Shown: positions 16,777 to 48,307 of the stretch, piece by piece
Numbering within the stretch: the first letter of the stretch is position 1
Layout: every line of letters begins with the position of its first letter
Source of the DNA: Pseudomonas sp. MPC6
GTDB taxonomy: Bacteria; Pseudomonadota; Gammaproteobacteria; Pseudomonadales; Pseudomonadaceae
Direction: 5' to 3'
Length of the DNA stretch: 64,000 nt
NCBI RefSeq assembly: GCF_006094435.1
Contig: NZ_CP034783.1
Location: 2,569,001 to 2,633,000 of the forward strand
Notes under the pieces: model-generated
Databases searched by the model: none
What the model saw: only the letters and a program-made list of their open reading frames with translations
Told to the model about the DNA's origin: nothing
Made by a program: the position numbers and the translations under genes

Positions 16777-16816
16777 CCCCAACAATGGGGCAAGAAGTCC
16801 CGACCCGTAAAAGGGG
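16777..16816. promoter_or_regulatory. Two CCCC-N6-GGGG-type elements upstream of mnxG
   Basis: CCCCAACAATGGGG at 16777-16790 is a full match; ACCCGTAAAAGGGG at 16803-16816 has one mismatch. Their centres lie about 131 and 105 bases upstream of the inferred mnxG transcription start, the usual distance for an NtrC-type activator. The reverse arrangement GGGGAATATCCCC follows at 16825. Confidence 0.65.
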
Positions 16817-16888
16817 GAATGGGTGGGGAATATCCCCCGGCTTAGCAAATGCTATCTGTAACTGATTGATAAACAACAATAATATTTA

Positions 16889-16903
16889 TGGCATGCGGAT
16901 TGC
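16889..16903 (+). promoter_or_regulatory. Sigma-54 promoter of mnxG
   Basis: TGGCATGCGGATTGC matches TGGCAC-N5-TTGC at all but one position, with exact GG-N10-GC spacing. Transcription would begin about 16915, 46 bases before the mnxG ATG. Confidence 0.75.
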
Positions 16904-16960
16904 TCCAAGGGACTTGTCGAGAATTATTCCCTGTGAGCACCCACAGCGAGGCCCGTGATC

Positions 16961-19900
16961 ATGACCGGCATACCCAACGCTCAGTCCCTTTTCAAATTGC
17001 TGCTGTTGGTGGCGCCGATGCTCGGCATCGGGGTGGCCGAAGCGGCGTTGCGCTGTGAACGCAATCTGGTGGCCAACGTCGTGGCCCTGGATCAGCCACT
17101 GATGTTCAACCGCCTTGGCGCGCAGAACGTCAACGGCATGATGTTCGCCCTGCGCCGCGACGTGGTCGACGACCATGACCGGTCCCTGGCCCAGGGCGGC
17201 TCGGCGGTGCCGGGCAAAGTCTCGCTGCGACCGGACAAGCGTCCGCGGCCATTGGTGCTGCGGGTCGCGGCGGGTGACTGCCTGACCATCAACCTGCAGA
17301 ACCTGCTGGCTTATCAGGCCAACCCCGGTTCCCACGAAGACGGTGAAGGAGTAGAGGGCGAGGTTGAAATCGGTAACGAGGTCAACTTCAAGGTCGACGA
17401 GCAGGTCAAGGATCGACACGTCGGCTTCCAGGTCAACGGCATGCAGGCGGTCAATAGTATCGATGACATTGCGTCCTATACCGGGCGCAACGCCAATACC
17501 TTGATCGCCCCGGGTGCCAGCCGTTCCTACACCCTGTACGCCGAGCGCGAAGGCGCATTCGCCGCCAGCAACCGCGGCGCGACCTTCGGTGGCGAAGGGG
17601 ATGCGGGCAACGTGGCCAACGGTCTGTTCGGCCAGGTGGTGGTGGTGCCCAAGGGTGGCCGCACTTATCGCAACACCGTGACCGAAGAAGAAATGCGCCT
17701 GGCCAGCGCCGGCCGCACCCCGGCCGGCCAGCCGATCGTCGACTATCAGGCGCGTTACCCGCAGCGCGAGCCGTGGATCCGTGAAGGCAAGGCCGGCACG
17801 CCGATCATCAATATGGTCGACGGCAACGAAATCATCTCCAGCGAGAGCGACGCGATCGTGATGGGCAGCAACGCCGATGGCAGCTTCCCGCCTTCGACCT
17901 ACCCGCTGGAAGCCCTCGGCAAACGCAACCCGGCGATCCCCAATCGCCTGGAGCCGTTCCGCGATTTTGCTTCGCAGTTCCAGGATGAAACCGCCGCGAC
18001 CCAGGCGTTCCCCGCGTATTGGGCTGACCCGGTGATGGCCCACGTGCTGGAGCCGACCCGCGACTCGTTCATGATCAACTACGGCTCCGGCGGCATGGGG
18101 GCCGAGGTGGTGGCCAACCGTCTGGGCGTCGGGCCGATGCACGACTGCCTGTCCTGCGCCTACGAAGAGTTCTTCCTCAGCTCCCACACCGTCGGCGACG
18201 TGGCGATGCTGGTGGACGTACCGGCCAACACCGGCCTGGAAGGCATTCTCCCGGGGCAGGTACCGAACGCCGATCAGATCGGGGTCAAGGCGACCATGGC
18301 GCTGTACCCGTCCGAACCGTCGAACGTCAACCACAGCTACATCGGTGACTTCGTAAAATTCCGCAACACCCACAACGGTCACGAGCAGCATATTTTCCAC
18401 CTGCACGGGCACCAGTGGTTGTTCAACCCCAACGACGACAACTCCGATTATGTGGACGCCCAGGGCATCGGCCCGGGTGCCGGCTACACCTATGAAATCG
18501 CCAACGGTGGTTCGGGCAACCGCAATCGCGTAGCGGGCGATGCGATCTATCACTGCCACTTCTATCCACACTTTGCCCAAGGCATGTGGAGCATGTGGCG
18601 GGTGCACGATGTGTTTGAAGAAGGCACCAGACTCGAAGTATCCCAACAAGGCAGCGACGGTTTCCACAGCGAACCTTATGCATTGCGCAGCGGCAAACCG
18701 GCGGCTGGCGCTCGGGCCTTGCCCGATGGCGAGATCGTTGCCGGGACCCCGATCCCCGCGGTAGTGCCGCTGCCGGGCAAAGCCATGGCACCGATGCCGG
18801 GCAAGGTCGCGGTGGTGCCGAAAATCGGCGAAACCCTGGTGGCCGGTGGCGATGATGACGAGGAGGATGACGATGGCGAACACCACGGCGGCAGCGGCGG
18901 CGCCCAGGCCATCGGTTCCCTGGCCCTGGTCGATCGCAGTGAAGCCAACCGCAATGCCGACGGCAGCCTGAAAAACCCTGGCTATCCGTTCTGGATCGGC
19001 GGCATGGAAACCTCAGTCGGCCAACGCCCACCAACCCCGCCACTGGACATGCTCGACGCAGCCAAGGCTCAGTCCTTGAAAACCAGCGGCAATGCGTTGT
19101 GGACCAACCTCGACCCGGCTCAGTCCGGCGGCTGGGACGGCGGCCTGGGGCGCCATTCCCTGGATGGCTTCTCCGCCGGTGGCGAGGCGCACACCATTAC
19201 CACCTCCCTGGATTTCTCCAAGGAAGTGACCCGGGCCAAACCCATCTACATGCCGGAAGAGGGCACCGAAGTCGAACAGGCGGCCATGGCGTTCCACGCC
19301 AAAAAAGACCACCCAAGCTTTGCCGTGCTGCCGGGCAATCAGGTGGTGGCGCGCAATTTCCGCACCAACGGCGCGTTACCGATCGCGGGCGCTCCGTATT
19401 ACGAACCGTGCATGGATGACCGGCAAAAACGCCTGACCAGCAGCGCCGGCACCGGCGAGTTCAATAGCGGTGAACGGGTTGACGGCATGTCCTACACCGG
19501 TTCCTCGACCTTCACCGCCGACCGTCCACGGGTCTATAAAGCCGCGAACATCCAGTTCGACGCGGTGTACAACAAGGTCGGCTACCACTTCCCGCAAGCG
19601 CGCATCCTGGCGCTATGGGAAGACGCCTGGCCGGTGATCACCAAGCAGCGCCCACCAGAGCCGCTGGTGATGCGCATGAACACTTTCGACTGCGTGCAGT
19701 ACCAGCAAACCAACCTGGTGCCGGCCACCTATGAGATGGACGACTATCAGGTGCGCACGCCGACCGACGTGATCGGCCAACACATTCACCTGCCGAAATG
19801 GGACCTGACAGCGGCCGACGGTTCGGCCAACGGCTGGAACTACGAGGACGGCGTGCTTTCCCCAGGTGCCGTGCAAGAACGCATCCACGCCATTCGCGAG

Positions 19901-22777
19901 TTCAACCAGTGCACAGGCACCGACCCGCGTGACGGCACGCCGGCCTGTCCAAAAGCCAAGGCGCACCCGTTCTTTGGCCAATACGGCCGGGCCGACTGGG
20001 TCGGCGCGCGCACGGCGATGCAGCGCTGGTTCGTCGACCCGGTGGTCAACGCCAAAGGTGTCGACCGTGGCCTGGGGACCATTTTTACCCACGACCACTT
20101 AGGCCCATCGACTCACCAACAGATTGGTCTGTACGCCACCGTGCTGGCCGAACCTGCCGGCTCCACCTGGTTCCACGCCGAAACCGGCGAGCCGTTGTAC
20201 AGCGGCGCGCGGCAGGACGGCGGACCGACTTCGTGGCAGGCGGTGGTGTCTACCGGCGACCTGGACGGCGACGGCAAGAACGACAGCTTCCGTGAGTTCT
20301 TCCTTGAGTACAGCGACTTCCAGCATGCCTATGAAGCCGGTGTGTATGTCGGTGCCGGCCCCAACGGCGTGCCTAACCCGCAAGCCTTCCCGGCCACCGC
20401 CGACAGCTTCCGCTACGCAATCAACCCGCCGGTGCGCAATAACGCCAGCAACCTGCTGGAAGGGATCGTCGAAGTGCAAGGCGGGCAGGTACCCGGTTGC
20501 CCAAGCCGCCCATGCCCGCAAGCGATCTCGGTCGATGACCCGGGCATGTTCGTGGTCAATTACCGCAACGAACCGCTGGCCCTGCGGGTATATGACCCGA
20601 ACAAGGTCGGCCCGGACGGCAAGCGCGGCATGCAGGCCGACGGCCTCGGCGGCGACCTGGCGTATGCCATGCAAAGCCGTACCGACCGTGCGATCCCGGC
20701 AATGAACCTGGCGCCGAACCTGGTCACTGCGGCCACCGGCCCCACCGGCGGCACCACGCTGTTCCCGCCGCACATCAACCGTGGCGGCGCGGAGCCGGGC
20801 GACCCGTTCACCCCGATGCTGCGCACCTACACCGGTGACAACGTGCGGCTGCGGGTACATGCCGGCGGTCACGAAGAAGAGCACAACGTGACCCTGCACG
20901 GCGTGAAATGGCTGCAGAGCGGGTCCGGGTTCGGCAACAGCTCCAACTCGGGCTGGCGCTCGTCGCAGATGGTCGGGATCTCCGAGCAGCTGGGCTTCAA
21001 TGCGCCGGTGTCGATGATGTCCAGCTCGGCCGCGACCACCGGGGATTACCTGTACTCGATGGACGCCTCCCTGGAAGGCTACTGGAGCGGGATCTGGGGC
21101 GTGATGCGCAACTACACGGCCCAGCGCAGCGATCTGTTCGCGGTGCCGAACAACGCGAAACCGACGGGTATGCGCAATACGGTTGCGTTCGATGGCATCT
21201 GCCCACGGTACGGCGCCAACCCGAATGGCATCGGTACCCGGCCGACCGTGCAACGCAACTATGAAGTGGTCGCGGCGCTGGCCAACGACATTCTGCGCAA
21301 TCCGCTGAACCTGGCGATCGGCGATCCGGCCGGGCTCGGGCAACATGTCGGCGGGCCGTTGAATCCGGCGGGCGGCACCCTGGTGTTCAACTCACGGACG
21401 GTGAGCATTCCGCAGGTTACCGTAACCGACCCTGAAGACGGTGAGACCTTCACCATCGGCGGGCAAAGCGGGCCACTGCATGACCCGACGGCGATCCTGT
21501 ATGTGCGCAAGGGCGACCTAGATCCGATCACCGGCAAGCTCAAGCCTGGCATACCTGTCGAACCGCTGGTACTGCGCGCGGCGGCCGGTGATTGCATCAA
21601 CATCACCCTGGAAAACCGTCTGCCACTGATCATGCCGGACCTGACCCAGACTGCAGTGATGCAAGGCATGGTCAAGCGCGATCGCAACAGCGGCCTGGGC
21701 GCGACCACCTTCAGCAACAACCTGATGCGGCCGTCCAGCCACGTTGGCCTGCACGCGCAACTGCTGGCGTATGACATCACCAAGTCCGACGGCACCAACG
21801 TCGGCGCCAACCCGATCCAGACCGTGCCGCCACGGGTGGGCACAGTCGGCGCGTACCCGACGCGTACCTATAAGTACTACGCCGGGCACCTGGAACGTGA
21901 AGGCAAGCCGATCACGCAACTGGGCCGTAATGTCGACAACATCAACGCCACGGCGGTGGAGTTCGGCGGGTTGAATTTCACCCCGGCGGACGTCATCAAA
22001 CAGCCGCAGAAAGGCCTGGGCGGGGCGATGAGCATCCTGCCGATCGGGGCGACCTGGGTTGACGATGCGCGCAAAGTGACGGCCACGGTCACCGCACCGG
22101 GGCAAACCACCTACCGCGACTTTGCGATGGTCTGGCAGAAAGCCTTGAACATCCGCTGGGCCGACGGCCGGCCGGTGGAAGGCATTGCCGCCGAAGGCCT
22201 GGGTGTGCCGACCGATCCGCAGGACAACTCGAGCATGGCCATCAACTACAAAGCCGAGCCGCTGTGGTTCCGCTTCGGGCTGGCACCGGATGCGCCCTTC
22301 GGGCATGCCGATGGCCATGGTTACGGTGACGTGCCCAATGCGCACATGGCCTACAGCAACGCACTGGTGGGAGGCGATCCGCAAACGCCAGTACTGTATG
22401 TGAAGCCGGGGCAACCGTTCCGCACCCACATCATGATGCCCACCGGTGGCAGCCGCGGTACGACCTTCCAGCTTGACGGTCACGTCTGGTCGGTCAACCC
22501 GTTCCAGTCGGAGAAGAGCGATACCGGCGGTTACCCGATGAGTACACCAGGGGTGGGTTCGGTGCGGTTCGGCTTTAACCCGATGTCGATGTACATCGGC
22601 GCACGGGAAAGCATCCTGCCGGCGGCGCACTTCAGCTTCATGCACCCGAGCGCCGGGGGCAGCAATGCGATACCGGGCGACTACCTGTTCCGTGACTACG
22701 GCGCCTACGGCAACACCGCCGGGCTTTGGGGATTGCTGCGGGTAACCAACGAGCCCGAACCGGCACCGGCACCGTAG
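16961..22777 (+). CDS. mnxG: Giant multicopper oxidase MnxG, Mn(II) oxidase
   Basis: 1938-aa exported multicopper oxidase; in P. putida GB-1 the homologue of this exceptional size oxidises Mn(II) to Mn(III/IV). A signal peptide (LLLLVAPMLGIGVAEA) is followed by several cupredoxin domains. Copper-ligand motifs include HIFHLHGHQW (about residue 477) and HCHFYPHF (about 531). Further His-rich segments are FTHDHLGPSTH (about 1043), EEEHNVTLHGVKW (about 1304) and HFSFMHPSAGG (about 1890). An acidic, His-containing linker DDDEEDDDGEHHGG lies near residue 633 and might bind metal. ATG 16961 has GAGG nine bases upstream; the in-frame GTG 16955 lacks one. Driven by a sigma-54 promoter, and heads the gene group that runs to 28796. 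Confidence 0.92.
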   Translation: MTGIPNAQSLFKLLLLVAPMLGIGVAEAALRCERNLVANVVALDQPLMFNRLGAQNVNGMMFALRRDVVDDHDRSLAQGGSAVPGKVSLRPDKRPRPLVLRVAAGDCLTINLQNLLAYQANPGSHEDGEGVEGEVEIGNEVNFKVDEQVKDRHVGFQVNGMQAVNSIDDIASYTGRNANTLIAPGASRSYTLYAEREGAFAASNRGATFGGEGDAGNVANGLFGQVVVVPKGGRTYRNTVTEEEMRLASAGRTPAGQPIVDYQARYPQREPWIREGKAGTPIINMVDGNEIISSESDAIVMGSNADGSFPPSTYPLEALGKRNPAIPNRLEPFRDFASQFQDETAATQAFPAYWADPVMAHVLEPTRDSFMINYGSGGMGAEVVANRLGVGPMHDCLSCAYEEFFLSSHTVGDVAMLVDVPANTGLEGILPGQVPNADQIGVKATMALYPSEPSNVNHSYIGDFVKFRNTHNGHEQHIFHLHGHQWLFNPNDDNSDYVDAQGIGPGAGYTYEIANGGSGNRNRVAGDAIYHCHFYPHFAQGMWSMWRVHDVFEEGTRLEVSQQGSDGFHSEPYALRSGKPAAGARALPDGEIVAGTPIPAVVPLPGKAMAPMPGKVAVVPKIGETLVAGGDDDEEDDDGEHHGGSGGAQAIGSLALVDRSEANRNADGSLKNPGYPFWIGGMETSVGQRPPTPPLDMLDAAKAQSLKTSGNALWTNLDPAQSGGWDGGLGRHSLDGFSAGGEAHTITTSLDFSKEVTRAKPIYMPEEGTEVEQAAMAFHAKKDHPSFAVLPGNQVVARNFRTNGALPIAGAPYYEPCMDDRQKRLTSSAGTGEFNSGERVDGMSYTGSSTFTADRPRVYKAANIQFDAVYNKVGYHFPQARILALWEDAWPVITKQRPPEPLVMRMNTFDCVQYQQTNLVPATYEMDDYQVRTPTDVIGQHIHLPKWDLTAADGSANGWNYEDGVLSPGAVQERIHAIREFNQCTGTDPRDGTPACPKAKAHPFFGQYGRADWVGARTAMQRWFVDPVVNAKGVDRGLGTIFTHDHLGPSTHQQIGLYATVLAEPAGSTWFHAETGEPLYSGARQDGGPTSWQAVVSTGDLDGDGKNDSFREFFLEYSDFQHAYEAGVYVGAGPNGVPNPQAFPATADSFRYAINPPVRNNASNLLEGIVEVQGGQVPGCPSRPCPQAISVDDPGMFVVNYRNEPLALRVYDPNKVGPDGKRGMQADGLGGDLAYAMQSRTDRAIPAMNLAPNLVTAATGPTGGTTLFPPHINRGGAEPGDPFTPMLRTYTGDNVRLRVHAGGHEEEHNVTLHGVKWLQSGSGFGNSSNSGWRSSQMVGISEQLGFNAPVSMMSSSAATTGDYLYSMDASLEGYWSGIWGVMRNYTAQRSDLFAVPNNAKPTGMRNTVAFDGICPRYGANPNGIGTRPTVQRNYEVVAALANDILRNPLNLAIGDPAGLGQHVGGPLNPAGGTLVFNSRTVSIPQVTVTDPEDGETFTIGGQSGPLHDPTAILYVRKGDLDPITGKLKPGIPVEPLVLRAAAGDCINITLENRLPLIMPDLTQTAVMQGMVKRDRNSGLGATTFSNNLMRPSSHVGLHAQLLAYDITKSDGTNVGANPIQTVPPRVGTVGAYPTRTYKYYAGHLEREGKPITQLGRNVDNINATAVEFGGLNFTPADVIKQPQKGLGGAMSILPIGATWVDDARKVTATVTAPGQTTYRDFAMVWQKALNIRWADGRPVEGIAAEGLGVPTDPQDNSSMAINYKAEPLWFRFGLAPDAPFGHADGHGYGDVPNAHMAYSNALVGGDPQTPVLYVKPGQPFRTHIMMPTGGSRGTTFQLDGHVWSVNPFQSEKSDTGGYPMSTPGVGSVRFGFNPMSMYIGARESILPAAHFSFMHPSAGGSNAIPGDYLFRDYGAYGNTAGLWGLLRVTNEPEPAPAP

Positions 22778-22787
22778 GAGCGATGGG

Positions 22788-22989: not shown

Positions 22990-23030
22990 AGGGCGATTAG
23001 ACAGGCACAGATCTGTAAGGGGAGAACAAT

Positions 23031-28805: not shown

Positions 28806-28862
28806 CCCCAATACTGGGGAAAGAACTTCAGTGCCACTCCACACGCTTCCCCGCCTTTGGGG
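28806..28862. promoter_or_regulatory. Two CCCC-N6-GGGG elements upstream of the secretion/curli operon
   Basis: CCCCAATACTGGGG (28806-28819) and CCCCGCCTTTGGGG (28849-28862) are both perfect in the arms and 43 bases apart centre to centre, close to four helix turns. They sit about 151 and 108 bases before the inferred transcription start near 28964. Confidence 0.7.
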
Positions 28863-28937: not shown

Positions 28938-28952
28938 TGGCATGAAGTGTGC
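28938..28952 (+). promoter_or_regulatory. Sigma-54 promoter of the secretion/curli operon
   Basis: TGGCATGAAGTGTGC has exact GG-N10-GC spacing; the -12 element reads GTGC instead of TTGC. It precedes the TTG start at 29019 by about 67 bases. Confidence 0.6.
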
Positions 28953-29018: not shown

Positions 29019-29552
29019 TTGTTAAACAAAGTACTGGTTGTCGAAGACGAACAGCTCCTTGGCGAAAACCTCAAGGATTACCTTCAGGCGCAAGGGTTGG
29101 ACGTCCGGATTGCACATGACGGAGCGACGGGTATCGGTGAAGCCGAACGGTTCGCCCCCGATGTGATGGTGTTCGATTACCGCTTGCCCGATATGGAAGG
29201 CTTTGAGGTGCTCGATGCTGTCCGCCGGAACAGGAATTGTCATTTTGTACTGATCACGGGGCACCCCACCGCTGAAGTCTGTGAGCGGGCCCGGCAACTC
29301 GGAGTCAGTCATATCCTGTTCAAACCCTTTCCATTGGCGGAATTGGCCCGGGCAGTCTGCGATCTTCTGGGCATGCAGCGCGAACCCAAAGCAGGCATGA
29401 GCACATCCGAAGGTTTTGTCGAACGACGCCAGAGCAGGACCGAAAGTTTCCCGCTGCAGTTGTACGACGGCAGTTGGGTGCTGGCAGATCGTCGACGAAT
29501 TCCATCGACGTCCGAGGCACCAGACGACGGACAATTGCTCACCGGGGATTAG
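29019..29552 (+). CDS. Stand-alone response-regulator receiver protein
   Basis: 177 aa. CheY-like receiver (residues about 4-120) with acidic pocket VEDE, phospho-acceptor D53 in VMVFDYRLPDMEG, Thr in LITGHP and Lys in ILFKPFPL. The tail of about 55 residues has no recognisable DNA-binding or enzyme domain. The receiver resembles that of MnxR (53859), so it could compete for the same kinases as a phosphate sink. The start is TTG with AAGGAG six bases upstream. First gene of the operon running to csgG. Confidence 0.82.
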   Translation: MLNKVLVVEDEQLLGENLKDYLQAQGLDVRIAHDGATGIGEAERFAPDVMVFDYRLPDMEGFEVLDAVRRNRNCHFVLITGHPTAEVCERARQLGVSHILFKPFPLAELARAVCDLLGMQREPKAGMSTSEGFVERRQSRTESFPLQLYDGSWVLADRRRIPSTSEAPDDGQLLTGD

Positions 29553-29621
29553 GGGCGCGACAAGCTGTAATGGCTCGCCGCGTCGACAGGGCTCAAAGCC
29601 CCCGGCGTTGGAGAGCATGCC

Positions 29622-32112: not shown

Positions 32113-32113
32113 C

Positions 32114-35541: not shown

Positions 35542-35543
35542 TC

Positions 35544-36017
35544 ATGAACGCCTCGCAACGTGGTTTTACCCTGATCGAAGTCGTGGTGACGCTGGCCCTG
35601 ATCGGCCTGCTGGCGGGTATGGCCGCGCCGCTGACCGAGACCGTGGTGCGCCGGGGCAAGGAACAGGAGCTGCGCACGGCGCTGTACCAGCTTCGCGACG
35701 CCATCGACGCCTACAAGCGCGCCTTTGACGCCGGCTATATCGAGAAGTCGCTGAACAACAGCGGCTATCCACCCAATCTGCAAGTGCTGGTGGACGGCGT
35801 GCGCGATGTGCGCAGCGCCAAGGGCGCCAAGTTCTATTTCCTGCGCCGGGTGCCCCGTGACCCGCTGGCTCCGGTCAAGCGCGACGACGAAGGCGGCTGG
35901 GGCTTGCGTTCCTATGACAGTACGGCTCAAAGCCCGCGGGAGGGCGAAGACGTCTTTGACGTCTACTCCCAGGCGCGCGGCAAGGGTCTCAACGGCATCG
36001 CCTACCGGGAGTGGTGA
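35544..36017 (+). CDS. Type II secretion pseudopilin
   Basis: 157 aa. Prepilin cleavage site RG|FTLIEVVVTLALIGLLAGM with Glu at +5, followed by a long first helix. The body (RTALYQLRDAIDAYKRAFDAG, FYFLRRVPRDPLAP, EGEDVFDVYSQ) resembles GspG-like pseudopilins of MSHA-type clusters. ATG 35544 is preferred to TTG 35538. No prepilin peptidase gene is in the window, so PilD elsewhere would process it. Confidence 0.87.
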   Translation: MNASQRGFTLIEVVVTLALIGLLAGMAAPLTETVVRRGKEQELRTALYQLRDAIDAYKRAFDAGYIEKSLNNSGYPPNLQVLVDGVRDVRSAKGAKFYFLRRVPRDPLAPVKRDDEGGWGLRSYDSTAQSPREGEDVFDVYSQARGKGLNGIAYREW

Positions 36018-36020
36018 CTT

Positions 36021-36395
36021 ATGCGCCGGGAAAAGGGTTTTACCCTGCTGGAACTGATGGTGGTCATGGCAATCATCGCGACCCTGATGACCATCGCCTT
36101 GCCCCGCTATTTCAACAGCCTCGAAGCCTCGAAGGAGACCACCCTGCGCCAGAGCCTGTCGGCGATGCGCGAGGCGCTGGACCACTACTACGGCGACACC
36201 GGGCGCTACCCCGATTCCATCGAACAACTGGTGGAGCAGCGTTACCTGCGCAACCCGCCGATGGACCCGATTGCCGAGCGCAAGGACCTGTGGGTCCTGG
36301 TGGCGCCGCCGGACGGTGTGCCGGGCGGGGTTGCCGATATCAAGAGCGGTGCCACAGGGAGGGCGCGTGATGGCAGCCTTTATGCCGAGTGGTAG
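36021..36395 (+). CDS. Type II secretion pseudopilin, GspG-like
   Basis: 124 aa. Prepilin cleavage site KG|FTLLELMVVMAIIATLMTI with Glu at +5. The short body (SAMREALDHYYGDTGRYPDSIEQL, NPPMDPIAERKDLWVLV) matches the GspG family. Three bases after the previous pseudopilin gene and overlapping the next by 26 bases. Together with gspG at 15.9 kb the machine has several GspG-like subunits. Confidence 0.87.
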   Translation: MRREKGFTLLELMVVMAIIATLMTIALPRYFNSLEASKETTLRQSLSAMREALDHYYGDTGRYPDSIEQLVEQRYLRNPPMDPIAERKDLWVLVAPPDGVPGGVADIKSGATGRARDGSLYAEW

Positions 36396-36906
36396 GCCCT
36401 CGAACCAGGCGGGTTTCACCTACCTGGGCGTGCTGTTCCTGATCATGGTGATGGGCATGGGCCTGGCCAGTGCCGGCGAATTATGGTCGACCGCCTCGCG
36501 CCGTGACCGTGAACGCCAGTTGCTCTGGGTCGGGACCCAGTACGCCCAGGCCTTGCGCAGCTATTACCGCAGTTCGCCGGGCCTGGCGCAGTACCCCAAA
36601 GAACTGGCGGACCTGGTGCAGGACGAACGTTTTCCCAACGCCAAACACCATATTCGCCAGCTGTACCCGGACCCGATCGGGGGCGGCGAATGGACCCTGA
36701 TGCGCGGTTTCGACGGGCGCATCACCGGCCTCTACAGCCCCTCGACGGACAAGCCGCTCAAACAGGCGGATTTCCCCAGTCAATGGTCGGACTTCACCGG
36801 CATGGCCAGTTACAAGGACTGGCAGTTCGTGGCCGAGAAGGCGTTCCTCGAGGGCACGTCGGGGCCGAAAAGTCCGTCCAGGTCTGCACAAGGAGTGATG
36901 CCATGA
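36370..36906 (+). CDS. Atypical pseudopilin lacking Glu+5
   Basis: 178 aa. The prepilin-like start is AG|FTYLGVLFLIMVMGMGLAS: the cleavage Gly and Phe+1 are kept but the residue at +5 is Gly instead of Glu. The helix is followed by WSTASRRDRERQLLWVGTQYA, the pattern seen in the minor pseudopilin of MSHA-like operons. Loss of Glu+5 is known for tip pseudopilins such as GspK, so this could cap the pseudopilus. ATG 36370; the stop overlaps csgE by ATGA. Confidence 0.75.
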   Translation: MAAFMPSGRPSNQAGFTYLGVLFLIMVMGMGLASAGELWSTASRRDRERQLLWVGTQYAQALRSYYRSSPGLAQYPKELADLVQDERFPNAKHHIRQLYPDPIGGGEWTLMRGFDGRITGLYSPSTDKPLKQADFPSQWSDFTGMASYKDWQFVAEKAFLEGTSGPKSPSRSAQGVMP

Positions 36907-37292
36907 ACCGATTCTGCCTGGCCCTGATCCTGCTGCTGGCGACGCCGTTTGCCGCGGCCGCCGAAGAGGACGAAATGATGGGCTTTATCGTCGACGACAC
37001 CATCTCGCACATCGGCCACGAGTTTTATTACGCGTTCAGTGAACGCCTGCGCGCCACCAGTCCCATGGATTTCAACCTGGTGGTACGCGAACGACCTTCC
37101 GCACGCTGGGGCAGCCTGGTGACGGTGGAGTACCAACAGCGTTTGGTTTATCGGCGCTTCCTGCCGCCGAACACCGTGGATCTCAAGGAGGAGGCGTACG
37201 ACGCCGCCGACTGGGTGCGCGGGCAGATCGTCAAACGCAAGCTGGAAGCCTTGTTGCAGGACACCACGGACCTTGAGAGGGACGAACTATGA
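36903..37292 (+). CDS. csgE: Curli assembly protein CsgE
   Basis: 129-aa periplasmic curli accessory factor. A signal peptide (LALILLLATPFAAAA) is followed by the CsgE core (FIVDDTISHIGHEFYYAFSE, NLVVRERPSARWGSLVTVEY, VDLKEEAYDAADWVRGQI). CsgE caps the CsgG channel from the periplasm and directs curli subunits into it. AAGGAG lies upstream, and the start overlaps the preceding pseudopilin stop, so curli and secretion genes are translationally linked. Confidence 0.93.
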   Translation: MNRFCLALILLLATPFAAAAEEDEMMGFIVDDTISHIGHEFYYAFSERLRATSPMDFNLVVRERPSARWGSLVTVEYQQRLVYRRFLPPNTVDLKEEAYDAADWVRGQIVKRKLEALLQDTTDLERDEL

Positions 37293-37723
37293 AAACCAAA
37301 ACGTTGTTGCGCCGCCCCGGACTTTCACTGGCCGCCATCTGCTTGCTCGGGTTGGCCAGTGGCGGCCTGGTCCAGGCCACGGAGCTGGTCTACACGCCGA
37401 TCAACCCGTCATTCGGCGGCAACCCGTTGAACGGAACCTGGCTGCTCAACAAAGCCCAGTCGCAAAACGACTACGACGATCCGGACTTGAAAGAGCGGAC
37501 CTCGCTGGCCGGGACCTCGGCCCTCGAACGCTTCAGCAGCCAGTTGCAATCGCGGTTGCTGGGACAGTTGCTGGACAACATCTCCACCGGCAACACGGGG
37601 AGCCTGTCCACCGACGCTTTTATCGTCAACGTCATCGACGACTCCGGCGCACTGACTATTGAAGTGACCGACCGCGCGACCGGCGAAATTTCGGAAATCC
37701 AGGTGAATGGCCTGGCCCCTTGA
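37289..37723 (+). CDS. csgF: Curli assembly protein CsgF
   Basis: 144-aa exported protein. After the signal peptide the mature N-terminus TELVYTPINPSFGGNPLNG is the almost invariant CsgF segment that inserts into the CsgG pore, followed by TWLLNKAQSQN. CsgF extends the pore at the cell surface and places CsgB there. Overlaps csgE by ATGA. Length normal. Confidence 0.95.
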   Translation: MKTKTLLRRPGLSLAAICLLGLASGGLVQATELVYTPINPSFGGNPLNGTWLLNKAQSQNDYDDPDLKERTSLAGTSALERFSSQLQSRLLGQLLDNISTGNTGSLSTDAFIVNVIDDSGALTIEVTDRATGEISEIQVNGLAP

Positions 37724-37751
37724 GGGGCTCGGTCAACGGGGAGACAAGGAC

Positions 37752-38618
37752 ATGAAAAAGATCATAGCGCTAGGGCTGATGTTGGCGGCATTACAAGGGT
37801 GCAGTCTGCGCGAGCCGATGTCGGCGGAGCAGGACACCGAAACCCCGACCCTGACACCTCGGGCGTCGACTTATTACGACTTGCTGAACATGCCACGCCC
37901 CAAAGGCCGGTTGATGGCGGTGGTGTACGGCTTCCGGGATCAGACCGGGCAGTACAAACCGACCCCGGCCAGTTCCTTTTCCACCAGCGTGACCCAGGGC
38001 GCGGCGAGCATGTTGATGGACGCGATGCAGGCCAGCGGCTGGTTCGTGGTGCTGGAACGCGAGGGGCTGCAGAACCTGCTGACCGAACGCAAGATCATCC
38101 GCGCTTCGCAGAAAAAACCGAATACGCCGATGAATATCCAGGGTGAGCTGCCACCGCTGCAGGCGGCGAACATGATGCTCGAGGGCGGGATCATTGCGTA
38201 CGACACCAACGTGCGCAGCGGCGGGGAAGGGGCCGGTTACCTGGGCATCGACGTTTCCCGCGAGTATCGGGTGGATCAGGTCACGGTGAACCTGCGGGCG
38301 GTGGATGTGCGCAGCGGGCAGATCCTGGCCAACGTGATGACCAGCAAGACCATCTACTCCGTGGCCCGCAGTGCCGGGGTGTTCAAGTTTATCGAGTTCA
38401 AGAAGTTGCTCGAGGCTGAGGTCGGGTACACCACCAACGAGCCGGCGCAGTTGTGTGTGTTGTCGGCGATCGAGGCGGCGGTGGGGCATCTGTTGGCCCA
38501 GGGGATTGAACGCAAGATGTGGCAGGTGGCGGGGGATAAGACCGCGCCGCTGCAGGATGAGACGCTGGATCGGTATTTGACCCAGGCCAAGGTGGTGCCT
38601 GAGGGTAAGGAAGAGTGA
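37752..38618 (+). CDS. csgG: Curli secretion channel lipoprotein CsgG
   Basis: 288-aa outer-membrane lipoprotein forming the nonameric curli pore. The lipobox is LAALQGCS. The core includes AVYGFRDQTGQYKP, FSTSVTQGAASMLMDAMQASGWF, VVLEREGLQNLLTERKII and the transmembrane-hairpin region around GGEGAGYLGIDVSREYRVDQV. Length matches the family. Last gene of the operon that starts with the receiver protein at 29019; followed by about 1.7 kb without a gene. Confidence 0.96.
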   Translation: MKKIIALGLMLAALQGCSLREPMSAEQDTETPTLTPRASTYYDLLNMPRPKGRLMAVVYGFRDQTGQYKPTPASSFSTSVTQGAASMLMDAMQASGWFVVLEREGLQNLLTERKIIRASQKKPNTPMNIQGELPPLQAANMMLEGGIIAYDTNVRSGGEGAGYLGIDVSREYRVDQVTVNLRAVDVRSGQILANVMTSKTIYSVARSAGVFKFIEFKKLLEAEVGYTTNEPAQLCVLSAIEAAVGHLLAQGIERKMWQVAGDKTAPLQDETLDRYLTQAKVVPEGKEE

Positions 38619-42356: not shown

Positions 42357-42384
42357 GATGAAACCTCCAAAGTGGGGCAATGCT

Positions 42385-42846
42385 TTAGCGATACTGTTTG
42401 ACTGAAACGCTCATGCCGTTTCCCGACTGGGTCACGGCACTCGAGAGCCCCGTGCCGGCCTGGTCGATGCTGGCGTCGTTGTTGTTGCCGTTCTGGGAAA
42501 TCTGCGCGCGGTTGTGGCTGCCGTTTTGTGTGATTTCGGCGTTGTTGCCCGAACCTTGCTGGGTGATCAGGGCCATCAGGTCGCTGCCTTGCTGCAGGAT
42601 GTACGCTTCCTGATTGCTCCCCGACTGGACAATGCGACCGAGCAGCGACTGGCCGTTCTGTTGCAGCAGCGCGACGTTGGCCTGGCCGTTCTGGTCGATC
42701 AGCGCTTGCTGGCCGATCGGCGCTGGCCATTCGCCGAGGTCGGCTCCGGGCGCCAGGTCGTCGTTCTCCATCAAATCATCGGCCCGCACGCCCGCACTGC
42801 TGCAAAGCAGAAGCAGGCAGAGCAGGGTGGCGGTCGATCTTTTCAT
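42385..42846 (-). CDS. csgB: Curlin nucleator CsgB
   Basis: 153-aa exported minor curlin. A signal peptide (ending SAGVRA) and a short acidic spacer precede five or so curlin repeats (QQALIDQNGQANVALLQQ, IVQSGSNQEAYILQQGS, ITQNGSHNRAQISQNGNNN), ending in VKQYR, a basic end as in enteric CsgB. It would seed CsgA fibres at the surface with CsgF. Lies between the exported-protein genes and csgA on one minus-strand transcript. Confidence 0.9.
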   Translation of the reverse strand: MKRSTATLLCLLLLCSSAGVRADDLMENDDLAPGADLGEWPAPIGQQALIDQNGQANVALLQQNGQSLLGRIVQSGSNQEAYILQQGSDLMALITQQGSGNNAEITQNGSHNRAQISQNGNNNDASIDQAGTGLSSAVTQSGNGMSVSVKQYR

Positions 42847-42906
42847 GGCGGTGTCCTTTGGGAAGAGGCTTGCCCCACCGACCGGCCAGATCGGTGGGGC
42901 GAGGGC

Positions 42907-45141
42907 TTACTGCACGGTAACGGCGACCGTGCGCACGGTGCCCTGGGACGAGCGGATGGTCGCTGTCGGGTTCGCCGACGGGATCACCGTGGTGCTGTTG
43001 CTCACCGTCAGCCGCCAGCGTCCGGTCAACGGCACCGTGGTGGTGCCGAGGGTCACCAGCCCGGTCGGCGTGGTCACCTGGATGGTGATGGTGTTGCCGG
43101 TGGTCACCGATGATGTGCCCGAGAAGTCCCAGTTGAAGCGGTTGTTGGAGCGGGCCGTCACCGTGGCCGCGGTCACCGCGAAGGTTTCCGCTGCTGGCCT
43201 TGGCGAGACTTGCACCGTGACCGTCGCCGGTGCCGACTGGGCGCCGAAGCTGTCCCTGGCGACGTAGGTAAAGGTCGTGGTGAAGGCCGTCGTGACCGTG
43301 GCCGGTGGGGTGTAGGTGATCACGGTGCCGTCAGTGCTGACGGTGCCGCGACCGGCCGCTGGCTGGGTCTGGATGGCGACGGTTAACGGCACGTTGCCTT
43401 CCGGATCGGTGTCGTTGGCCAGCACGTTGATCGGTACCGCCACGCCCAGGGTCGCGATGCTGTCGACGACGGCCACCGGAGGCTGGTTAGGCGCCACGGT
43501 GATGGTCACGGTCGCCGGAGCGGTCGAGGCCAGGCCTTTGACGTCTTGCGCCTTGTAGGTGAAGGTCGTGGTCAGCGGTGCGTTGACTACGGCCGGTGGG
43601 GTATAGACCACCGCTGCCGTGCCGCTCAAGGCGACGGTGCCCTGGTTAGCGGCCGGTTGGGTCAGCGCGGTGATGCTCAGTGGCGTGTTGCCGTCCGGGT
43701 CGCTGTCGTTGCCCAGCAGGTTGAGGGTGATCGGCACCCCGAAGCTGGTGCTGCCGGTGTCGGCCACGGCCAATGGCGCCTGGTTTTCACCGGTGTCCGG
43801 GGCCGAACCGACCACCACGACCGGCTCGGTATCGCTGCCGCCCCTGGCGGATTTGATCGTGACGGTGGCCGGTGGCTGCGGCAGATCGGCGACGGTCAGG
43901 CGTTGCAGGGTGCCGGTCTTCGACAGACGTCCGTAACCCTGGGCGACCATGTCCGGTACCGCCACTTCGTCAGTGGAGGTGGCCTCGATCAGCAGGCTGT
44001 GATTGCTCCAGTTGTACCGAGCGGTCTGGACTTTCACCACGTCGGTGAGCTTGCTCGACACTGCCGTCGGCCGGGTGGTACCTGTCGGGTTGGTGGCGGT
44101 GACCACCACGACCGGCGGCACGTTGCCGGTGAACTGACGCTGGCCGAAGAACAAGCCATTGTTGTCGCCGGTCATGTTGATCAGGCATGGCGACAGCGGT
44201 GGGCCGGGTACCAGCGCAATGCTTTCGCGCAAGCACAGGCTCGACGTGTTGCCCGATTTGCCGAAGACTTCGACCCGCGTACCGGTGTCGGTGCGCCGGT
44301 AAGTGGCGCGGTCGATTTCCACCGGGGTCTGGGCACGGTTGTCGAGGACTTTGCCGGATACGGTGAACAGGTTGGTCTCGATGGTCCCGGCCGGTCCCTG
44401 GATACGCACGAAGTTGGTGTTGTTGGGGCTGCCGGTGACCTGCTCGGTGAGGTTCGGATCGCCGACGAAGGTGTCGACGGTTCCGGTGTCCGGGTTCATC
44501 TCGGTGTAGGGGCCGTTGACGCTACGCAGGAACGGGCCGACGTTGCCATTGAGCACGCCGCTGAAATTACCGGGTGCACCGATGCCGATGTCGCGGGTGA
44601 TATTGATGGCACGCCTGCCAGGCGTGGTGACGTTGACCGTTTCCACCCCGTAAGGGTGGGTGATGGTGTAGACCCCGGCGGTCGGCACTGAGATGCGCAG
44701 GCGAATCCGCGCGAAGCTTTGCTGATCGCCATCGACCGGGTTTTCCGAGGCGAATGCCGCCTCGATCCCGGCCACGTAGACTTCCAGCTCATAGCCGCTG
44801 TTACCGACCTGCGGGATTGCGGTCTCGGCCAGGAACCAGAAGGCTTCCGGCGGCCAGTTGTCGGGGAAGATCATCGGCTGAGCGTCGTCGTAGACCCCGG
44901 GTTCCGCCAGCAATATGCACATATAGGCCGGTGGCACGCTGGGCGGCACCCGCGAGCTCGCGGCCCGGGACTGGCACAGTTCCATCGACAGCTGATTGTT
45001 GTCCTGATACCACATGGGGAATTTCCCCGTGGCGAAGGTGTAAGGACCGGGGTCGACGGCGGCGAGTTGCGCGAACGCGCTGCCGGACAGCGATAACGTC
45101 AGTCCCAGGGCGTTGAGCGCCAGGCGTGGCCAATTGTTCAT
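42907..45141 (-). CDS. Large exported protein with two tandem-95/cadherin-like repeats
   Basis: 744 aa. A signal peptide (ALGLTLSLSGSAFA) is followed by an N-terminal domain of about 430 residues shared with the next upstream gene (WYQD, DAQPMIFPDNWPPEAFWF, RRAINITRDIGIG, FLRSVNGPYTE, NTNFVRI). Then come two Ig/cadherin-like repeats of about 95 residues (VPITLNLLGNDSDPDGN; VPINVLANDTDPEGN, DxDPxGN calcium-type loops) and a C-terminal beta domain. ATG 45141 has GGAGG four bases upstream. No known enzyme motif; probably a surface or matrix protein co-expressed with curli. Confidence 0.8.
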   Translation of the reverse strand: MNNWPRLALNALGLTLSLSGSAFAQLAAVDPGPYTFATGKFPMWYQDNNQLSMELCQSRAASSRVPPSVPPAYMCILLAEPGVYDDAQPMIFPDNWPPEAFWFLAETAIPQVGNSGYELEVYVAGIEAAFASENPVDGDQQSFARIRLRISVPTAGVYTITHPYGVETVNVTTPGRRAINITRDIGIGAPGNFSGVLNGNVGPFLRSVNGPYTEMNPDTGTVDTFVGDPNLTEQVTGSPNNTNFVRIQGPAGTIETNLFTVSGKVLDNRAQTPVEIDRATYRRTDTGTRVEVFGKSGNTSSLCLRESIALVPGPPLSPCLINMTGDNNGLFFGQRQFTGNVPPVVVVTATNPTGTTRPTAVSSKLTDVVKVQTARYNWSNHSLLIEATSTDEVAVPDMVAQGYGRLSKTGTLQRLTVADLPQPPATVTIKSARGGSDTEPVVVVGSAPDTGENQAPLAVADTGSTSFGVPITLNLLGNDSDPDGNTPLSITALTQPAANQGTVALSGTAAVVYTPPAVVNAPLTTTFTYKAQDVKGLASTAPATVTITVAPNQPPVAVVDSIATLGVAVPINVLANDTDPEGNVPLTVAIQTQPAAGRGTVSTDGTVITYTPPATVTTAFTTTFTYVARDSFGAQSAPATVTVQVSPRPAAETFAVTAATVTARSNNRFNWDFSGTSSVTTGNTITIQVTTPTGLVTLGTTTVPLTGRWRLTVSNSTTVIPSANPTATIRSSQGTVRTVAVTVQ

Positions 45142-45176
45142 GATGCCTCCTGATGAGGATCTGGGCATGTGAGCGT

Positions 45177-46523
45177 TCATTGCACGATGACCACTTCTTC
45201 GGTGTCGCTGCCGCCATTGGATGACGTCACGCGAACCCTGGCCGGTGGAATCGGCGAGATCCCGGTGGCCAGGGTTTTCACCGCGCCTTCGCCACTGAGG
45301 GCGCCGATGGCGGCACCGCTGGCGGATGAGGCGGTGAGCACTGGCGGCGAAGTTTCATCACTGGTCGAGGCCACGAGGGTCAGTTGCCCGCTGCTGAGGC
45401 TGTACTCCGCACGCTGGATCACCACCAGGTCGGTCAGCGCCATGGACAAGCTGGTCGGTGTGCTGGTGGGGATCGCCAGGTGGTTGTCCGCGGTCACCTG
45501 CACCGTGCTCGGCAAGGTCGGGTTGGCCGCGGACTGCGCGTACCAGTTGCCGGTGGTGTTGGCTTCGCTCATGTTCAGCACCGGGCTGCTGCTGGTCACG
45601 GTGGCAGTCGCCGGCGGCGGAGGTGCCATGACGAACACGTCCTGCTGGGCGATCGGCGCGCTTGCACCGGCTTTGCGCGAGTAAGTGCTGCGCTGGGCGA
45701 TCACCGGCGTCGGCCGCACCACCGTCGACAACTTGCCGGAGATGCTGAACAGCGTGGTGCGCAGATCCAGGCCATTGGGCCCTTCGATGCGCACGAAGTT
45801 GGTGTTGAACGGGCTGCCGGTGATGGCCTCTTCGAGGTTCGGATCGCCGATGAATTGCTCGGCTGCACCGGTCAGCGGATTGGTCTCGGTGTACGGGCCG
45901 TTGACGCTGCGCAGGAAGGGGCCGACGTCACCCTTGAGGGCGCCGTCATAGGTTTTCGGTGAGCCGATGCCGATGTCGCGGGTCATGTTGATCGCCCGCC
46001 GCCCGGGCACATCGACGTTGAACACATCGACGCCGTAGGGGTGGGTGACGACGTAGGTGCCGGCGGTGGGCACATCGATGCGAATGCGCACCCGGGCGAA
46101 GCTGAGCTGGTCGCCCTCGACCGGTTCTTCCGCAGCGAAAGCCGCTTCGATGGCGGTGCCAAACGACAGGTCGATGCCCCGGGTGGCGTCGACGATGGCC
46201 GCATCGGCGCTGAACCAGAACGCCTCGTCAGGGAAATTGGTCGGGAAGACGATCGGCTGTGCGTCATCGAACACGCCGGGGGTCGGCAGCAACGTGCACA
46301 TGTACGACGGCGCACCGGGTGCGCCGGGAGCCCTGGAGCTGACGGCCTTGGACAGGCACAGGTCGAGGGTTCGACCGTGGGTGTCCTGATACCAGGCGGC
46401 GAACGAGCCGTTGGCGGGCAGATAGGGTCCGGGGTCGACGGCATACAACGCCGCCTGGGCGATGCCTTGGGCCAGAGCACTCACGACCAGCGCGGCCGCG
46501 GTTTTGGACAGTAAAGGGTGCAT
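45177..46523 (-). CDS. Exported protein, paralogue of the 744-aa neighbour
   Basis: 448 aa. A signal peptide (AAALVVSALAQGIAQA) is followed by the same domain as in the downstream gene: YAVDPGPY, WYQDTHGRTLDLCLSKA, DAQPIVFPTNFPDEAFWF, RRAINMTRDIGIG, SVNGPYTETNP and the ending NGGSDTEEVVIVQ. It lacks the cadherin-like repeats. The pair probably arose by tandem duplication. Function unknown. First gene of the csgBA operon, about 50 bases downstream of a good sigma-54 promoter. Confidence 0.8.
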   Translation of the reverse strand: MHPLLSKTAAALVVSALAQGIAQAALYAVDPGPYLPANGSFAAWYQDTHGRTLDLCLSKAVSSRAPGAPGAPSYMCTLLPTPGVFDDAQPIVFPTNFPDEAFWFSADAAIVDATRGIDLSFGTAIEAAFAAEEPVEGDQLSFARVRIRIDVPTAGTYVVTHPYGVDVFNVDVPGRRAINMTRDIGIGSPKTYDGALKGDVGPFLRSVNGPYTETNPLTGAAEQFIGDPNLEEAITGSPFNTNFVRIEGPNGLDLRTTLFSISGKLSTVVRPTPVIAQRSTYSRKAGASAPIAQQDVFVMAPPPPATATVTSSSPVLNMSEANTTGNWYAQSAANPTLPSTVQVTADNHLAIPTSTPTSLSMALTDLVVIQRAEYSLSSGQLTLVASTSDETSPPVLTASSASGAAIGALSGEGAVKTLATGISPIPPARVRVTSSNGGSDTEEVVIVQ

Positions 46524-46583
46524 GAGTTAATCCCTCTATCAGAGTACCTGTCCCGTGAGGTGGGTCAGTTGAGAGGGTCTTCG

Positions 46584-46598
46584 GCAACTTCCGTACCA
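46584..46598 (-). promoter_or_regulatory. Sigma-54 promoter of the exported-protein/csgBA operon
   Basis: Read on the minus strand: TGGTACGGAAGTTGC. It matches TGGYAC-N5-TTGC fully, with GG-N10-GC spacing. Transcription would start about 46572, about 50 bases before ATG 46523. Confidence 0.75.
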
Positions 46599-46687
46599 AG
46601 CGGCGAAAACGATCCTGAGAGGTCCGGGGCGCGGGCCTGCGGCGGGCAAACGCTGTCAGGCCATCGCTCGATCAAGCGGGCCATTGT

Positions 46688-46772
46688 CCCCAGCATTGGG
46701 GGTAGGTGGGGAAGGCGGGGAGGTGTGGGATAGCTACCACAGCCTTTGCCGGTCCAAACCCCGACATCGGGC
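46688..46772. promoter_or_regulatory. Two CCCC-N6-GGGG-type elements between csg-linked operon and mnxS1
   Basis: CCCCAGCATTGGGG (46688-46701) is a full match and lies about 122 bases upstream of the minus-strand transcription start. CCCCGACATCGGGC (46759-46772) has one mismatch and lies closer to the mnxS1 start. A third, weaker copy GGCCAGCATTGGGC at 46777 shares the AGCATT spacer. Confidence 0.65.
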
Positions 46773-46821
46773 AAACGGCCAGCATTGGGCTATAACCCTA
46801 TAGGGGAAACGTCGGGAACAA

Positions 46822-48276
46822 ATGTCCATGAACATGCCTACCAAAGCGCTCCTGTCGCAGGAGGGCGATACCCGCCTGCACTCGCGCAAGCCGCCGTTCA
46901 ATCTGTTGCGCTGGTTTTCGCTGATCAGCCTGGCGGTGATCGGTACGGTTGCGGTGGCGCTGGGGGCGGTGTCCACGCGGTTCGTGATTACCGAGAGCGT
47001 GCAGCGCGATGCCTTGCTGACGTCGCAGTTCATTCAGGCGATCGCCTCGGCCGAGGTGCGCCATGTGTCGATCCCCAACGTGCGGACTATGGGCGAGCTG
47101 CTCGACCCCCGCAAGGACAAGGACTTTCCCGACGTCGACCCGATGGCCCGGGCCAATGCCCGTGGCGAATTCCTCGACCATATCGAACACTTGCCGGACG
47201 TGATCCTGGCCAACATCTACGCCCCCGACCGCATGGTGATCTGGTCGACGAACCCGGCATTGATGGGCACCACGATCCATACCGACGACGATCTGGATCA
47301 AGCCTTCGCCTCCAGGACCCCGGTGTCGGCCAGCTATCACGACGTCGACCACGGCCGCATGGAACAGAAGTTCGTGACGCCCCCGGAATACATCTTCATC
47401 GAGAACTACATTCCGTTGTTCGATGCCGACGGCGACAAAGTCACCGCGATGGTCGAGATCTACAAGGAGCCCAAGGACCTGATCAATCGCATGGAGCGCG
47501 GCCTGGTCATGATCTGGCTCGCCACCGCCCTGGGCGGCGGGCTGATTTACCTGGGGCTGTACTGGATCGTGCGCCGGGCCGCGATCCTGTTGGCGGCGCA
47601 ACAGCAGCAACTGATCACCAACGAAACCTTTGTCGCCCTGGGCGAGATGTCGTCGGCGGTCGCCCACAGCCTGCGCAATCCGTTGGCGACCATTCGCTCC
47701 AGCGCTGAACTGGCGCTCGAATTCGACAGCGGCGCGGCGCACAAGAACATCAACGACATCATCGGCCAGGTTGATCGTATGTCGAAATGGGTCAGGGAGC
47801 TGCTGCAATCCTTGCGCCCGCTCAACGACGAGGCGGAGCCGGTCAATCTGGTGGCGGCATTGCATGACAGCCTCATGGCCTTCGAGCAGCAGATCGCCAA
47901 GGCCAACGTCCTGGTCGTGTTCGAGCCCAGGCAGACACCCATGGTCCTGAGTCAGCAGGTGCAGTTGACGCAGATCCTCAACAGTTTGCTGGCCAATGCG
48001 CTGGAGGCGATGGAGAAGGGCGGCACGCTCACCATCGCCCTGGAGCCGACCGATGCCCAAGGCGTTTGCGTGGCGGTGAGCGACACCGGCAAAGGCATGA
48101 GCGAAGAGCAACGCAGCATGGCCTTCCGGCCGTTTTACACCACCAAGCGCGGTGGCCTGGGGGTCGGACTGGTGCTGGTCAAGCGGATCATGGACCGTTT
48201 CGGCGGCGCGGTGACCCTGGAAAGCCGCGAGGGCGAGGGCACCACCGTGCGGCTTTCATTCAAACGGCTCACCTGA
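46822..48276 (+). CDS. mnxS1: Sensor histidine kinase MnxS1
   Basis: 484-aa inner-membrane kinase. Membrane helices at about residues 28-52 and 226-247 enclose a periplasmic sensor of about 170 residues. The kinase core has H-box EMSSAVAHSLRNPLATIRSS, N-box ILNSLLANALEAM, G1 VSDTGKGMSEE and G2 GGLGVGLVLVKR. It shares most of its layout and much sequence with MnxS2 (52397), including the sensor (VxWSTNP, EYxFIENYIP). MnxS1/MnxS2/MnxR is required for Mn(II) oxidation in P. putida GB-1. ATG 46828 is an alternative start. Confidence 0.9.
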   Translation: MSMNMPTKALLSQEGDTRLHSRKPPFNLLRWFSLISLAVIGTVAVALGAVSTRFVITESVQRDALLTSQFIQAIASAEVRHVSIPNVRTMGELLDPRKDKDFPDVDPMARANARGEFLDHIEHLPDVILANIYAPDRMVIWSTNPALMGTTIHTDDDLDQAFASRTPVSASYHDVDHGRMEQKFVTPPEYIFIENYIPLFDADGDKVTAMVEIYKEPKDLINRMERGLVMIWLATALGGGLIYLGLYWIVRRAAILLAAQQQQLITNETFVALGEMSSAVAHSLRNPLATIRSSAELALEFDSGAAHKNINDIIGQVDRMSKWVRELLQSLRPLNDEAEPVNLVAALHDSLMAFEQQIAKANVLVVFEPRQTPMVLSQQVQLTQILNSLLANALEAMEKGGTLTIALEPTDAQGVCVAVSDTGKGMSEEQRSMAFRPFYTTKRGGLGVGLVLVKRIMDRFGGAVTLESREGEGTTVRLSFKRLT

Positions 48277-48293
48277 AATCGGGTATGAACTTT

Positions 48294-48307
48294 CCCCATT
48301 AGCGGGT
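48294..48307. promoter_or_regulatory. CCCC-N6-GGGG-type element upstream of mcoA
   Basis: CCCCATTAGCGGGT has one mismatch in the right arm; a lone CCCC half lies 15 bases further. Its centre is about 128 bases upstream of the inferred mcoA transcription start near 48429. Confidence 0.55.

Follow-up and report, generated by a model that had tools for sequence, protein, structure and literature searches.

A conserved CCCC-N6-GGGG palindrome ahead of sigma-54 promoters as a probable enhancer site of MnxR in Pseudomonas

Why bacteria oxidise manganese (Mn) is a long-standing open question; in the Mn locus of Pseudomonas sp. MPC6, Mn oxidase genes share a region with secretion and curli genes. The stretch analysed here (64,000 nucleotides, G000:C4:2569001-2633000, within a genome of 7.22 Mb; hereafter the window) had been examined from its letters alone in an initial annotation, which proposed that a shared palindrome, CCCC-N6-GGGG, marks the regulon of MnxR, an NtrC-type response regulator encoded in the window. 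Comparative analysis of the sites and of the genomes carrying them indicates that the palindrome is very probably the upstream enhancer site of MnxR, a reading drawn from sequence comparison.

The palindromes all lie where the initial annotation had placed them: four are perfect (16777, 28806, 28849, and 46688), three have one mismatch (16803, 46759, and 48294), and the copy at 16111 has the form CCCC-N7-GGGG. Four perfect copies compare with 0.58 expected per 64 kb (Poisson P 0.003), and the four promoter intergenic regions, 897 bp picked post hoc, hold 4 perfect copies against 0.008 expected. The whole genome contains 65 perfect copies (overlapping copies included) versus 57 for the reversed control GGGG-N6-CCCC, hence the motif is hardly enriched across the genome. 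Copies with at most one mismatch are, as a class, fewer in the window than expected by chance (36 versus a shuffle mean of 72); such copies therefore need conservation to count, and the sites at 16803 and 48294 are credited because they are conserved, not by their number.

A -24/-12 promoter lies downstream of the site at four places. Ahead of mnxG (16955..22777, plus strand; a very large Mn multicopper oxidase by the name given in the initial annotation, with no Pfam match and with close relatives in 80 loci), the distal palindrome CCCCAACAATGGGG (16777..16790) lies 98 bp and the proximal one-mismatch palindrome (16803..16817) 71-72 bp ahead of the sigma-54 box TGGCATGCGGATTGC (16889..16903, plus strand), whose GG and GC are present in all 80 aligned rows. 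The secretion/curli-export promoter has a distal palindrome CCCCAATACTGGGG (28806..28819) and a proximal one CCCCGCCTTTGGGG (28849..28862), the latter 75 bp ahead of a sigma-54-type box TGGCATGAAGTGTGC (28938..28952, plus strand) in which the non-consensus GTGC replaces TTGC; it precedes a putative operon (29020..38618, plus strand, with a predicted start at 29020) for a receiver-domain protein, a type II secretion ATPase, a type II secretion system M-like protein, a secretin, CsgE, CsgF, and CsgG. On the minus strand, the exported-protein/curlin operon (42385..46523) comprises genes for an exported protein (45177-46523, no Pfam or NCBIfam match), an Ig/cadherin-repeat protein (42907-45180), and a curlin-repeat protein (42385-42846); its box TGGTACGGAAGTTGC (46584..46598, minus strand) is preceded at 89 bp by the palindrome CCCCAGCATTGGGG (46688..46701), located in the divergent spacer shared with mnxS1. 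Finally, the palindrome CCCCATTAGCGGGT (48294..48307) lies 95 bp ahead of the box TGGCGAGCTACTTGC (48403..48417, plus strand) of the multicopper oxidase gene mcoA (48453..51266, plus strand).

Measured from the palindrome centre to the inferred sigma-54 start, the distances are -131.5/-105.5 for mnxG, -151.5/-108.5 for the secretion promoter, -122.5 for the exported protein, and -128.5 for mcoA, so that the four promoters span about -104.5 to -151.5, i.e., enhancer distance. The values listed in the initial annotation for the first three promoters were reproduced; its -128 had been put under mnxS1 although it is mcoA that measures -128.5, and its -160, in the place of mcoA, was not recovered.

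The sites and their spacing recur across species. Together with the window, the best 80 of 177 mnxG loci (all but one labelled Pseudomonas) gave 81 promoters, 80 of which have a strict sigma-54 box (TGGY-N7-TTGC) and 72 a palindrome of at most one mismatch 60-125 bp ahead of it (perfect in 52). Two positions recur, a distal one with gaps mostly of 98-101 bp (perfect copies) and a proximal one at 68-78 bp; sites with at most one mismatch occur at 80-125 bp in 47/81 promoters, at 68-78 bp in 43/81, and at both in 18/81. At the distal site the aligned identity to the window is 0.74 for the arms versus 0.39 for the spacer. Conservation is strongest at the secretion promoter (window plus 75 of 80 loci, the other five lacking a usable match to the first gene or enough sequence upstream), where a perfect copy is found in 76/76 sequences and two non-overlapping perfect copies in 73/76, usually about 75 and 115-119 bp ahead of the box and thus about 42 bp (four helical turns) apart. 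A perfect copy persists there even where first-gene identity drops to 46%, and the spacers vary (23 distinct among 76 distal sites, 24 among 73 proximal ones), with arms versus spacer identities to the window of 0.99/0.71 and 0.99/0.69.

For mcoA, 40 regions were chosen from 119 genomes with a match and the window was added. The exported-protein gene is present in 28 of these regions, with a palindrome that is perfect in 27, has one mismatch in the other, and lies mostly 89 bp ahead of the box. All 32 near-type mcoA promoters (window included) have a palindrome of at most one mismatch at 60-125 bp, mainly of the form CCCC-N6-GGGT and perfect in 3; such a palindrome is also present in seven of nine mcoA-like promoters that are less closely related, and absent from the other two. 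Identities of arms versus spacer to the window are 1.00/0.77 at the exported-protein site and 0.97/0.67 at mcoA, and the flanks are also well kept (0.75 and 0.80, respectively).

In order to compare the motif with its alternatives, every 4-base inverted dyad with spacers of 0-16 (4352 candidates) was scored by the product of promoter fractions in the four families. CCCC-N6-GGGG ranked first over the four families jointly, although not always first within single families, and the dyads ranked second and third (CCCC-N7 and CCCA-N4) largely overlap it. Its perfect-copy fractions were 0.65 at mnxG (78 promoters), 1.00 at the secretion genes (76), 0.12 at mcoA (41, both types), and 0.96 at the exported protein (28), against base-shuffled means of about 0.01.

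A second line of evidence is the co-occurrence of the palindrome with MnxR. Pairs of CCCC-N6-GGGG followed at 70-100 bp by TGGY-N7-TTGC were counted in 398 Pseudomonas genomes, 131 of them with MnxR at E 1e-170. Such pairs were present in 129/131 genomes with MnxR versus 95/267 without it, with means of 2.34 and 0.41 pairs per genome; the first mean becomes 2.21 without G005, whose ten listed pairs are copies of one sequence, and several other listed pairs are likewise one sequence recurring in many genomes. Pairs made with the reversed pattern occurred in 9/131 and 38/267 genomes (means 0.09 and 0.18). In the wider scan that the initial annotation had suggested, the motif alone hardly rises above its control in the MPC6 genome, and the pairs across Pseudomonas support the proposal. 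Within the MPC6 genome a relaxed pair search gave seven matches. The Mn cluster holds four, one of which reads back into a gene, and the remaining three fall within or overlap long open frames. In addition, the exported-protein gene is accompanied by MnxR in 117 of the 118 genomes carrying it (363 searched), the single other genome, G316, being 78% complete; two genomes (G223 and G331) have MnxR without the exported protein.

The association also holds where the target lies apart from its presumed regulator. Twenty genomes, chosen among those in which the exported-protein gene and mnxR are apart (by 25 kb to 1.33 Mb on one contig in 14, on different contigs in 6), had a palindrome of at most one mismatch 88-92 bp ahead of the sigma-54 box in 20/20 cases, perfect in 16. 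These promoters were absent from the alignments, and the pairs of G200 and G259 were already listed in the pair census; as unlinked pairs add to the census counts, the two results are not independent of each other.

Twelve stretches were taken from genomes of the pair census, six of which hold mnxR. In three of the six (L294, L297, and L298) a pair lies directly upstream of mnxS2-mnxR, and in the others (L291, L295, and L296) pairs are found only before other Mn genes. Two of the three genomes with a pair before mnxS2-mnxR have mcoA elsewhere, and the third (G201) has none at E 1e-50. In the window, mnxS2 (52397..53890, plus strand) and mnxR (53859..55289, plus strand) come after mcoA. Pairs before mnxS2-mnxR elsewhere and the position of both genes behind mcoA in the window therefore point to positive feedback, which implies that mnxS2-mnxR may be autoregulated.

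Palindrome and sigma-54 box were also seen at other genes. In L180, L290, L292, and L293 they precede a gene resembling di-haem cytochrome c peroxidases (Pfam gives CCP_MauG for L290, and the other three look alike by eye), likely a further MnxR target in some strains. In L287 (101-360), L288, and L289 they are followed by similar open frames of about 40 residues, each with a hydrophobic stretch; the frame of L287 lies upstream of efflux-like genes, as judged by eye and without a family search.

MnxR is the candidate binder on account of its own features as well. It combines a receiver (PF00072), an AAA+ sigma-54 activator domain (PF00158), and a Fis-type helix-turn-helix (HTH; PF02954), and a search of the genome with PF00158 gave 34 matches, 28 of them strong, with MnxR alone in the window, in agreement with the initial annotation. 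The segment with its recognition helix hardly varies among relatives. The GAFTGA loop that contacts sigma-54 is usual in bacterial enhancer-binding proteins (bEBPs) of the NtrC family, albeit not universal, and in NorR changes at its second glycine position alter the control of the protein. MnxR has D at this position (GAFTDA, residues 226-231); among 51 relatives GAFTDA occurs in 47 and GAYTDA in 4, and the loop was located in 19 of the genome's 28 activator loci, with GAFTDA in MnxR alone.

The best-surviving alternative is that the palindrome is a genuine sigma-54 enhancer bound by another bEBP of the genome. About 28 strong activator domains are encoded, and seven of the 27 other C-termini were not recovered, which leaves room for such a protein. 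A widespread activator should, however, leave pairs in genomes without MnxR, where the mean is 0.41 against 2.34, and the relaxed matches in the MPC6 genome concentrate in the Mn cluster, as described above. The 20 other C-termini that were recovered all lack the recognition helix of MnxR, and CbrB of P. putida, as far as its description was available, uses non-palindromic TGTTAC subsites (PMC6296734). We consider another binder improbable; conservation, co-occurrence, the unlinked targets, and the sites before mnxS2-mnxR assign the sigma-54 regulon best to MnxR.

Relatives of MnxR are found beyond Pseudomonas. A search of 157 other genomes of the family gave 27 with an MnxR relative, one in the own genus and the rest in five further genera at about 64-83% identity, with an almost unchanged HTH segment; none of 273 further genomes sampled from the class had MnxR at E 1e-130. 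Five stretches from other genera (L268, L269, L271, L273, and L275) carry the palindrome in the divergent spacer, three of them (L271, L273, and L275) also upstream of mnxG. By eye, the divergent spacer of L267, L270, L272, L274, and L282 has a copy with one mismatch, and L278 and L280 have an N5 form; in these two the perfect palindrome occurs only within the Ig-repeat gene.

Several observations weigh against MnxR as the binder or limit what the counts can carry. The genomes are related and cannot be counted as independent samples, and because the Mn genes carry both the motif and MnxR with them, the co-occurrence of the two is confounded in part. A pair is present in 95 genomes without MnxR and absent from two with it, and with a looser pattern of 3+3 bases the MPC6 genome gives six matches (two at mnxG) against three in the control. 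Outside Pseudomonas, 13 of 20 MnxR stretches have no perfect palindrome (seven have one), and most members of one genus (L270-L275) carry two MnxR paralogues per genome. At mnxG itself, 9/81 promoters have no site at 60-125 bp: four of these (L049, L053, L080, and L112) carry a perfect copy farther upstream, for L104 the sequence upstream is limited to 177 bp, L091 is without a strict sigma-54 box, and L073, L120, and L124 have no site of at most one mismatch in 420 bp. The arms of the proximal mnxG site are barely better kept than its spacer (0.66 versus 0.56). Moreover, in mnxG promoters taken alone GGGG-N6-CCCC (68/78) exceeds CCCC-N6-GGGG (51/78), as does GGGG-N5-CCCC (58/78), an excess that indicates further conserved G/C tracts there.

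Two side observations concern these regions. In the window, conserved G and C tracts (GGGG-N5/6-CCCC) occupy 16804-16840, between the palindromes and the mnxG sigma-54 box. In L270-L275, the MnxR paralogue beside mnxG has perfect palindromes nearby, and the paralogue beside curli-type genes has none that is perfect.

Two sites named in the initial annotation fared less well. It had counted the sensor kinase gene mnxS1 (46822..48276, plus strand) as a sigma-54 target with its own palindrome. Among 30 mnxS1 sequences (window included; two with less than 200 bp upstream, and L148, a 62% relative, left out) none has the strict box in the last 200 bp, which rules out sigma-54 control of mnxS1, and all 30 match CTATA[AC] or TATAAC in the last 75 bp, as does the -10-like CTATAAC of the window (46790..46796, plus strand). 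The weak one-mismatch palindrome CCCCGACATCGGGC (46759..46772), with a centre -193.5 from the exported-protein start, sits about where the -35 region of mnxS1 would be, and a similar copy is kept in 9/30 promoters; its membership is doubtful, and it may have another role or none.

The N7 copy at 16111 had been placed before gspGF. Its arms are conserved in ten aligned sequences (window included), gspG and gspF were confirmed on the minus strand, and a TGGC-N7-TTGC match (15970-15984) lies 126 bp from it towards gspG, about 18 bp before the likely gspG start. A pair of N6-N8 palindrome and sigma-54 box on the gspG side was found in one of 74 mnxG loci (of 80), in the N8 form, and the copy overlaps a terminator-like hairpin (16100-16115; one found versus 0.7 in shuffles); the copy and the genes thus stand, and the tie to a conserved sigma-54 box does not. 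In the same part of the window (16060-16125), a sigma-54-like block CGGCACAGTGCTTGC, identical in the ten aligned sequences, is followed by the conserved terminator-like hairpin and then by a transglycosylase gene; block and hairpin are perhaps a leader with attenuation.

That hairpin, together with the ability of CCCC and GGGG to pair, is what speaks for the palindromes being transcription terminators or other RNA hairpins. They lie upstream of promoters, though, 46688 in a divergent spacer, with a recurring distance to sigma-54 boxes, and the terminator scan found none in 46500-46860 and only 16100-16115 in 16000-16960; we rule this reading out except at 16111 and hold it to be very improbable for the motif as a whole. 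Equally remote are chance matches in a GC-rich window. They would suit the low number of one-mismatch copies and the genome total near its control; at the main sites conservation and the unlinked targets rule them out, with the dyad ranking also against them, and at 46759 chance may apply.

With MnxR as the probable binder, the following mechanism can be proposed. The kinases MnxS1 and MnxS2 would phosphorylate MnxR, which, probably recognising each palindrome as a dimer, would bind one or two of them about 70-120 bp upstream of the sigma-54 boxes. The DNA would then loop, at mnxG and mcoA with the help of integration host factor (IHF), and MnxR would drive open-complex formation, switching on together mnxG, mcoA with the downstream mnxS2-mnxR (presumably co-transcribed), the secretion/CsgEFG genes, and the exported-protein/curlin genes; mnxS2-mnxR would at the same time be subject to positive feedback. 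IHF-like matches of at least 8/9 bases were found in 50/79 mnxG (shuffled mean 6.8), 27/32 mcoA (4.7), 33/76 secretion (3.2), and 0/26 exported-protein promoters (0.1); the window has such sites at mnxG (9/9 bases; 16859..16871, minus strand, between enhancer and promoter) and mcoA (8/9), and none in its secretion or exported-protein promoter.

With an enhancer motif this precise, the regulon of MnxR-bearing pseudomonads can be read from their sequence, and the bases to mutate are exactly defined. The motif also links the oxidases with the curli and secretion genes and predicts a di-haem peroxidase and a small membrane protein as new members. More tentatively, and somewhat less surely than not, MnxR may direct a single extracellular programme: the Mn oxidases, the products of type II-like secretion genes joined with the CsgEFG exporter, curlin-repeat proteins, and the exported protein would be made together and Mn oxide laid on an amyloid matrix, so that Mn oxidation would be part of a matrix-building response. 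If true, feedback on mnxS2-mnxR would help to explain why mnxG and mcoA expression is reported to be bimodal in P. putida GB-1 (PMC11930936).

As for what was known before, MnxR is reported to be required in GB-1, and an rpoN insertion mutant of strain MS-1, a relative, to lose Mn oxidation and to be complemented by GB-1 rpoN (PMC11409713). The initial annotation knew of no published MnxR binding motif, and none was found in the MnxR literature as far as it was covered; the original MnxS1/S2/R paper (Geszvain and Tebo 2010, doi 10.1128/AEM.02473-09) lay outside that search. The consulted part of the P. resinovorans literature names no site (PMC9765421), and a search joining mnxG with curli found no link in the texts available to it. 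Novelty seems to lie in the motif itself, in the additional genes placed under it, and in the feedback.

Among known systems, NtrC enhancers are inverted repeats, often paired, that lie 100-150 bp ahead of a -24/-12 promoter with IHF between. The sites described here resemble them in having one or more palindromes at enhancer distance and a candidate activator with receiver, AAA+, and Fis-type HTH domains, and differ in their CCCC/GGGG half-sites, in the genes served, and in GAFTDA for GAFTGA. For PmnxG and PmcoA of GB-1, IHF and sigma-54 sites had already been predicted and Mn-dependent bimodal activation described (PMC11930936); the mnxG and mcoA promoters of the window are like them in having IHF-like sites and sigma-54 boxes, and the account, in the part available, names no enhancer motif and does not mention secretion or curli genes. 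CbrB of P. putida, with its non-palindromic subsites in place of the palindrome of the window, is, as proposed for MnxR, a sigma-54 activator with upstream subsites and IHF, according to the available part of its description (PMC6296734).

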